Assembly: GCA_018819925.1 (NCBI GenBank)
Contig: JAHJPG010000087.1
Location: 1 to 64,000, forward strand
Origin: Pseudomonadota bacterium
Lineage (GTDB): Bacteria; Desulfobacterota; Desulfarculia; Desulfarculales; Desulfarculaceae
Length of the DNA: 64,000 bases
Direction of reading: 5' to 3'
Of the stretch, positions 87 through 13,599 are shown piece by piece; position 1 is the stretch's first letter; each line of letters starts with the position of its first letter. A model generated the notes under the pieces. It was not told the DNA's origin. It saw only the letters and a program-made list of their open reading frames with translations, and made no database searches. Made by a program: the position numbers and the translations under genes.

Positions 87-359
87 CTACCAGCGGGGGC
101 GAGGGGGCCGGGACTCGCGGGGCCGAGCCTCGTTCACCTTCAACTGCCTGCCGTCCAAATCGGCGCCATTCATGCCTGCGATGGCCTGGTCCGCGGCATC
201 GCCCTCCATCTCCACGAAGCCGAAACCGCGAGAGCGGCCGGTTTCACGGTCGGTAATCACCCGGGAAGACAGCACGGGGCCATACTGTTCAAAGGCCGCG
301 CGCAGGGTGTCTTCGTTGGAGTTGTAGGACAGGTTGCCCACGTAGATATTCTTTGCCAT
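87..359 (-). CDS. RRM-type RNA-binding protein
   Basis: This 90-residue protein is a single RNA recognition motif. It opens with the RNP2-like stretch KNIYVGNLSY and carries the RNP1-like stretch RSRGFGFVEM near the middle, followed by a short Arg/Pro tail. Proteins of this kind bind single-stranded RNA in the cytoplasm; in cyanobacteria and many proteobacteria they are often cold-induced, but the target here is unknown. The ATG at 359 is preferred over one at 407 because AAGGAG and further purines precede it, and the family starts with M-x-K-x-I-Y-V-G-N-L. The gene is monocistronic, with its own terminator downstream and a long leader holding a terminator-like hairpin, so conditional expression is likely. 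Confidence 0.9.
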   Translation of the reverse strand: MAKNIYVGNLSYNSNEDTLRAAFEQYGPVLSSRVITDRETGRSRGFGFVEMEGDAADQAIAGMNGADLDGRQLKVNEARPRESRPPRPRW

Positions 360-383
360 CTCTTCTCTTCTCACTCCTTCAGG

Positions 384-427
384 AAAAAAAACTAGCCCCT
401 CCCGCACTGGGAGGATGCTCCTAGGGG
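384..427 (-). terminator. Terminator-like hairpin inside the RRM gene leader
   Basis: On the minus strand CCTCCC (414-409) pairs with GGGAGG (403-398) around the loop AGTGC. An outer CTAG/CTAG pairing (424-421 with 395-392) extends it across an internal loop, and eight T residues follow (391-384). The RRM gene's ribosome binding site lies just beyond. Because the likely promoter is about 95 bases upstream, the element is inside the leader, which suits an attenuator. Confidence 0.6.
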
Positions 428-519
428 CCTTACGGGCCAGACTTTAGGCTTGGCTAGACATGCGAAAAGCAGGCTGGATCAAGCGGCTGGGTCGGGCTAT
501 AGGGCCAAATTCAAGAATT

Positions 520-547
520 AGCATACCCTATAAATACAGGTTGTCAA
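520..547 (-). promoter_or_regulatory. Likely sigma-70 promoter of the RRM gene
   Basis: On the minus strand TTGACA (547-542) is followed after 16 bases by TATGCT (525-520). The surroundings are AT-rich compared with the rest of the window. Transcription would start near base 513 and give a leader of about 150 nucleotides before the start codon at 359. Confidence 0.6.
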
Positions 548-12479: not shown

Positions 12480-13262
12480 TTACTCGCCCTGTTTGAGCCT
12501 CTCGCCCACCTCGGCGGCGGCCTTTTCGCCGCTCAGGAGCATACCGCCGAACACCGGGCCCATGCGATAGGAGCCGAACACCGCATTGGCGCACATGCCT
12601 GCGGTGTAGACCCCGGGGAAGGCCTCCTTGGTGTTGTCCAGGGTGTCGTTCTCGGCCTGCTCGGCCCACAGGGAGCGCTCGCCCACCACCTGGCCGTTGC
12701 TGGTGTGCAGGCTGGCGTCCACCTTGCGGGCGATGACGTGCAGCACCTCGGCGGCGTGGCCCGTGGCGTCTATGACCCAATCGGCCTTTATGGTCAAGGG
12801 GTCCACGTGGAGCCCTCCCATGCCCACCGCGCTCCAGTTGATGACCAGGCCGATGACCCGGGCGTGGCGGATCATAACGTCCTCCATGCTCACCAGGTTG
12901 AAGATGGTCAGCCCGGCCTTGGTGGCCACCGAGCAAAGGGTGCTGGCGCACATCACGCTGTCGGCGGTGTAGTAGCCGGGCTCGAACTCCCGGCAGGGCA
13001 CGCCGAACTCGTCCAGGATGCGCTTGGCCTGCTGTTGCACCACGATTTCGTTGAACATCATGCCGCCGCCCCACATGCCCCCGCCGATGGAGAGCTTGCG
13101 CTCGAACATGGCCACTTTGTGGCCGGCCTCGGCCAGCTTCTTGCCGGCCACCAGGCCGGCTGGGCCGCCGCCCACGATGGCCACGTCCAACTCAAGGTGG
13201 TCTTCAAGTTTCTCCATGTAGCGGCGGATGATGGCTCTGGTGATGGTGACTTCTTCGAGCAT
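12480..13262 (-). CDS. thi4: Thi4-type thiazole synthase (sulfide-dependent type)
   Basis: This 260-residue protein forms the thiazole part of thiamine from NAD and glycine. The dinucleotide-binding loop [14 protein letters not shown] is at residues 27-40, with [17 protein letters not shown] after it and [20 protein letters not shown] near the end. In the region where yeast Thi4 has its sulfur-donating cysteine, this protein reads [16 protein letters not shown] with no cysteine. His175 falls about where the archaeal enzyme has His176. That supports the catalytic, sulfide-using type rather than the suicide type. AAGGA precedes the ATG, and a TPP riboswitch lies upstream in the leader. Confidence 0.93.
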
Positions 13263-13328: not shown

Positions 13329-13349
13329 CAATACACTGCGGCGCGGCGT

Positions 13350-13434
13350 GCTTCCCTACGCTGGCATTACCCAACAGGTTCAAGGGGTCTACACCGCCAA
13401 CCGGCGTACTCTCAGCCCATAAGGGGCTCCCCCA
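13350..13434 (-). promoter_or_regulatory. TPP (THI-box) riboswitch upstream of thi4
   Basis: The minus-strand RNA shows the conserved TPP aptamer elements in order: GGGGGAGCCCC, GGGCTGAGAGTACGCC, ACCCCTTGAACCTG, and GGGTAATGCCAGCGTAGGGAAG. Together they form the P1-P5 arrangement, with the CTGAGA pyrimidine-binding loop intact. It lies about 90 bases upstream of thi4. Thiamine diphosphate binding should reduce thi4 expression. Confidence 0.97.
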
Positions 13435-13599
13435 GCAACTCGCTATGGCCCGCGTCTTGGCGAACGTGTCTATGGCTTACCTCCGGGCGCGTGCTTTTGT
13501 CAAATGCAAAAAACGCTCGCAGCTTGAGCAGGAGGGCGGGCGATGATATATTCTGCCAGTTAACCCTTAAACTTCTAACCCATGGGAGACGAGCAAGCC

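Follow-up and report, generated by a model that had tools for sequence, protein, structure and literature searches.

What governs the expression of a small RNA-binding protein gene that begins behind a leader of about 150 bases? The gene lies on the minus strand (ATG at 359, stop at 87-89) of the 64,000-nucleotide stretch of DNA analysed here (hereafter the window), the start of which is a contig end. Its product, an RRM protein, scores 113 bits against NF058537 (Rbp_regulator), over the curated cut-off of 100, and has matches in 40 of 40 genomes searched. The preceding same-strand gene ends at 889 and has a terminator-like site of its own at 863-839, and the RRM gene therefore probably forms a transcription unit by itself. 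The features of the gene and its leader are as follows.

87..359, minus strand: gene of a 90-aa Rbp-type single-RRM protein (PF00076, 75.3 bits; NCBIfam NF058537)
374..379, minus strand: Shine-Dalgarno sequence AAGGAG, followed by the ATG (from the sequence)
384..391, minus strand: T8 tract, beginning 2 nt past the stem
394..419, minus strand: GC-rich terminator-like hairpin, -15.0 kcal/mol
426..506, minus strand: conserved structured RNA arm, ~82 nt (covariance model R1 67.7 bits, R2 60.3 bits; covariation; fold)
520..525, minus strand: -10 element TATGCT with a 16-nt spacer, ending 13 nt before the arm (sequence scan)
542..547, minus strand: -35 element TTGACA (sequence scan), kept upstream of the arm in its copies

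The initial annotation had described the TTGACA-16-TATGCT promoter and the GC hairpin with eight T residues just before the ribosome binding site, and both are indeed present (547..520, and 419..394 with 391..384, respectively). The promoter scores 10/12, the 3 kb scanned containing 3 promoter-like sites against 0.5 ± 0.7 in shuffles, and transcription is predicted from the sequence to start near 513, ~6 nt before the arm. The core hairpin, TCCTCCC-AGTGC-GGGAGGG at 415-397, can be extended to 419-394 and is followed by AG. The window leader has the layout of an intrinsic terminator, namely a promoter, a GC hairpin, a T8 tract 2 nt past the stem, and the gene. Terminator-like sites in the 3-kb stretch were only weakly above chance (7 against 3.5 ± 1.9), and the fold of the whole window leader was no better than those of its shuffles (z = 0.08); thus, the single window sequence would prove little, and the proof is supplied by conservation. 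Elsewhere in the window, a TPP riboswitch (RF00059, 62 bits) was seen at 13336-13443 on the minus strand, directly before a gene (13262..12480) that looks by eye like a Thi4-type thiazole synthase.

A covarying RNA arm upstream of the hairpin

Two things had escaped the initial annotation: a conserved arm, placed immediately behind the predicted start, and a helicase branch in the regulon described below. The arm comprises P1a/P1b/P1c, P2 with a bulge, the apical hairpin P3, an unpaired CC, and an A-rich box. The outer helix P1 consists of GRCCA/UGGYC, an internal loop, AGCC/GGCU, and then two pairs, and P2, which has a bulged U, is formed by GCUnGA/UCUnAGC. Among the unpaired positions, conservation is highest at the CC immediately 5' of P2 and at the A-rich box 3' of P2; the weakest helix is P3, with 61% of cells paired among 32 model-aligned members.

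Leaders of homologues of the RRM protein within the family have in common a TTGACA promoter, a conserved block, and a hairpin with a T-run. The structure was named, and the covariance model built, from 18 trimmed sequences (alignment A4, MAFFT). The second alignment (A7, 32 rows, with L012 left out as below the cut) is model-fitted and leans towards the structure; in it, two-sided changes were found at 17 of the 22 pairs, with 60 compensated cells against 26.0 ± 4.1 in shuffles, none of 500 shuffles reaching 60. In A4, the two-sided cells likewise numbered 27, compared with 14.2 ± 2.8 in shuffles, and every measure fell in both alignments when the partners were slid by 1-3 columns. Covariation among related leaders, which the initial annotation had proposed looking for, was thus found in the upstream arm. 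RNAalifold returned no pairs on a plain 29-row MAFFT alignment, because the helices slip in that alignment, a fault cured by trimming to the arm. The G-U and A-C cells revealed no strand bias (41 and 33 in A7, 18 and 23 in A4, respectively), so that covariation alone is no proof that RNA is the acting molecule.

Genes and genomes that carry the arm

In total, 33 copies of the arm were kept, 28 of them at E ≤ 1.2e-6 and five from a class search (two in G017, one in G018, and two in G019). The class search gave matches at E ≤ 0.01 in 18 of 63 genomes and, after removal of G036 and G047, whose matches look like chance, in 16, all in the family or order of the window. A search of the phylum, with stricter filters by which weak matches were lost, found matches in 8 of 395 genomes, all in the family, and model R2 run on 80 RRM loci drawn from all phyla gave a single match, a Desulfarculaceae locus (L074). 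The element is therefore confined to one bacterial family (Desulfarculaceae-like) and its order. Among the discarded candidates, G036:C200 looks coding, G047:C260 has no clear gene, and the weak matches G000:C3 and G005:C1:755420 fall within an acyl-CoA-synthetase-like ORF; G020:C585, G006:C1:249975, and G009:C1:2270768 had E > 0.01 and were dropped, and a reverse-strand echo in G002 was discarded as well.

Downstream of the 33 copies lie an RRM gene in 26 cases, all of the Rbp type, a gene of an RhlE-like DEAD-box helicase without an intervening RRM gene in 5 (G006:C1, G007:C61, G020:C329, G019:C48, and G017:C162), neither an RRM nor a helicase gene in one orphan, and a contig end in one. In the window's own genome, the arm precedes 3 of the 4 RRM genes. 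Moreover, the RRM gene is followed ~125-145 nt later by the helicase gene in six genomes; five of these tandems have a strong arm and are counted among the 26 RRM copies, and the sixth (G010:C301, L049) has a weak arm score.

Several other leaders were noted in passing. An orphan arm with its hairpin (L186, G020:C54:154-234) lies before a sensor-like gene, without a promoter and without an RRM or helicase gene, and is perhaps a relic after gene loss. Another group of RRM paralogues in the same genus (L003, L054, L069, and L071) has a different leader lacking the arm. Divergent RRM leaders (L048, L050, L051, L018, L023, and L049) keep by eye a P1-like helix, for example UCCAA..GGUU/AACC..UUGGA in L048, with a low or nil model score, and the true extent of the arm class may exceed what the model captures. 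Nine RRM loci of Fermentibacteria/Sabulitectum (L078, L079, L080, L084, L085, L086, L088, L089, and L094) have another common leader, ~120 nt before the RRM gene, in which a nearly invariant CCGGGCTTCTTTT.TGTC.TC..GAAGATTCGG lies downstream of a hairpin of variable sequence; this is possibly a second, unrelated class of RRM leader.

Hairpin, T-run, and candidate switching

Of the 33 copies, 31 have a promoter that matches at least 8 of 12 positions; the -10 element of 30 of them ends 6-14 nt before the arm, so that transcripts should open with the arm. A hairpin lies between the arm and the ATG in every one of the 26 RRM leaders (-8 to -18 kcal/mol, 0-9 nt past the arm); the best such hairpin averaged -13.3 kcal/mol against -7.7 in shuffled sequences, and in 25 of 26 leaders its energy was better than the mean of the shuffles. 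A run of at least 4 T follows 0-12 nt past the stem in 24 of 26, adjoining the stem in part of them. The hairpin and T-run are thus conserved in relatives, as the initial annotation required of its reading, and a strict terminator-like pattern occurred in 25 of 34 leaders of the arm type, compared with 41 of 136 shuffled sequences. Terminators before RRM genes of other phyla showed no clear enrichment (18 of the 76 loci that were scored, compared with 50 of 304 shuffles; 79 loci, 3 unscored).

Conditional attenuation, which the initial annotation had expected, still accounts best for the window, but a simple intrinsic terminator is not the whole story: in the clade of L001, L013, L036, and L042, the T-run begins 7-8 nt past the stem, a greater distance than a textbook terminator allows, and the helicase-only copies keep the hairpin, with only one of five (L190) having a T-run of 5 or longer close to it.

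Cognate-against-swapped tests found no general antiterminator pairing, candidate pairings being seen in two clades only. A long-range P0 helix between the 5' end and the post-hairpin segment and the reuse of the P1 3' strand with that segment both appeared promising on visual inspection in some clades, and both failed the test (p = 0.22 and p = 0.77, respectively). Pairing of the arm with the post-hairpin segment gave p = 0.017 (0.0005 when the full post segment was used), the clearest single examples coming from one clade. In the clade of L013, L036, and L042, arm (P2) bases AGUGA..AAGC can pair with GCUU..UCACU beside the Shine-Dalgarno sequence, and in that of L017 and L020, according to sequence and folds, the P1 3' strand can double as part of the lower terminator stem UGGUC/GACCA; clades may therefore differ in how the arm and hairpin communicate.

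The L017/L020 arrangement, together with a compact arm that carries a conserved unpaired CC and an A-rich internal loop before a terminator-like hairpin, is what an orphan riboswitch would offer, the arm binding a small molecule or ion and the hairpin serving as the expression platform. We consider this very unlikely, since mutually exclusive pairing is not general and since the restriction to one family and its order, and to RNA-remodelling genes, better fits a protein regulator. Pairing beside the ribosome binding site bears on another alternative, namely translational control, in which access to the Shine-Dalgarno sequence, rather than termination, would be governed by the conserved A-rich box together with the hairpin/U-tract region. 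The MFE fold of the window leader pairs UUUUUUUUCC with the Shine-Dalgarno stretch, which places U8CC against the purine-rich ribosome binding site, and the L013/L036/L042 arm bases could act similarly; however, the purine-rich Shine-Dalgarno sequence of the window is peculiar to three leaders (L005-L007), and none of the pairings with the post-hairpin segment is clearly general, which makes this explanation unlikely.

In the MFE fold of the window leader, the arm and hairpin coexist, and the predicted MFE structure of the leader is unchanged from 10 to 55 °C, so that no simple RNA thermometer is seen; nor do the 26 leaders have a conserved short upstream ORF in common that could encode a leader peptide. 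A single predicted fold and a compatible arm and hairpin would also suit a fixed 5' stabiliser or a partial terminator of fixed strength, without condition-dependent control. Such an element is likewise improbable in our estimate, as compensatory change has kept the pairing of the arm, and the arm occurs also before helicase genes without an RRM gene, both of which go beyond the needs of a generic stabiliser.

Proposed regulation and known systems

Collectively, our tentatively preferred explanation is that the leader is a lineage-restricted cis-regulatory RNA of an RNA-chaperone/helicase regulon, acting by attenuation and probably autogenous. A strong promoter would start the transcript ~6 nt upstream of the ~82-nt folded arm, with the GC hairpin directly past the arm, usually then a U-tract, and then the ribosome binding site. 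A share of transcripts would end at the hairpin/U-tract, and a factor reading the arm would set the amount of read-through. Because one leader appears to control both Rbp-type RRM proteins and an RhlE-like DEAD-box helicase, the likeliest input would be the RNA-chaperone capacity of the cell, and feedback by RNA-remodelling proteins would be the most economical regulator of such targets. Presumably, the Rbp proteins themselves would bind and regulate, giving autogenous control as well as cross control between paralogues, with repression relieved when RNA is over-structured, for example in the cold. A bolder form of this proposal, which we regard as doubtful, is a new RNA class that senses RNA-chaperone capacity, in which one arm-plus-hairpin is wired to single-RRM proteins and the RhlE helicase and the arm is read by Rbp or by RNA polymerase; put-type antiterminator RNAs are read by RNA polymerase itself.

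Bacterial single-RRM proteins are common, and little is known of how their dose is set. If the proposal is true, the arm would be a defined RNA element by which bacterial RRM proteins control a regulon including themselves. The covarying leader common to paralogous RRM genes and an RNA helicase is a concrete target for testing self-control of RNA remodelling, and it illustrates a regulatory RNA class limited to one bacterial family and its order.

No family of Rfam 15 gave a match to the window leader at a threshold as lax as E ≤ 5, or to 20 related loci at gathering scores; this holds for any cold-shock leader or thermometer model in Rfam 15, and the Chlorobi-RRM model (RF01697) gave no match at gathering, nor at E ≤ 5 for the window leader. 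In a literature search that covered few subscription papers, no title or abstract opening among the papers listed described the arm, the Chlorobi-RRM motif, which precedes RRM genes, being nearest in kind. That motif likewise takes its name from RRM genes and is a candidate structured RNA, given as likely cis-regulatory (RF01697, Weinberg et al. 2010; PMC2864571, cited in part), but in the part cited it is listed for Chlorobi only, and the window leader is without an Rfam match.

Autogenous attenuators (ribosomal-protein leaders and the PyrR type) share the premature-terminator architecture, whereas in the arm leaders no general antiterminator was found and protein binding is putative; Naville and Gautheret propose attenuation-based self-regulation of RNA-binding proteins, the main text of their paper making no mention of RRM (PMC2965389). 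Bacteroides RbpB, a homologous RRM-1 protein, crosslinks to its own mRNA and has a binding site there, but it belongs to another phylum, and the part of the report cited describes no arm-type leader for it (PMC11697453). The CrhR helicase is autoregulated (PMC3485376, cited in part). These cases, like the following one, are analogies to the arm leader rather than tests of it. In Caulobacter crescentus, long 5' UTRs are likewise found on the genes of cold-shock RNA chaperones (cspA/cspB) and of the RhlE helicase: transcription attenuation keeps cspA low at the optimal temperature, and rhlE needs its 186-nt 5' UTR for full expression and appears self-regulated (PMC5472812, cited in part). For the arm leaders, a cold response is a prediction; moreover, the cspA/cspB element is reported, in the part cited, to be absent from rhlE (PMC5472812), in contrast to the arm, which is common to RRM and helicase genes.
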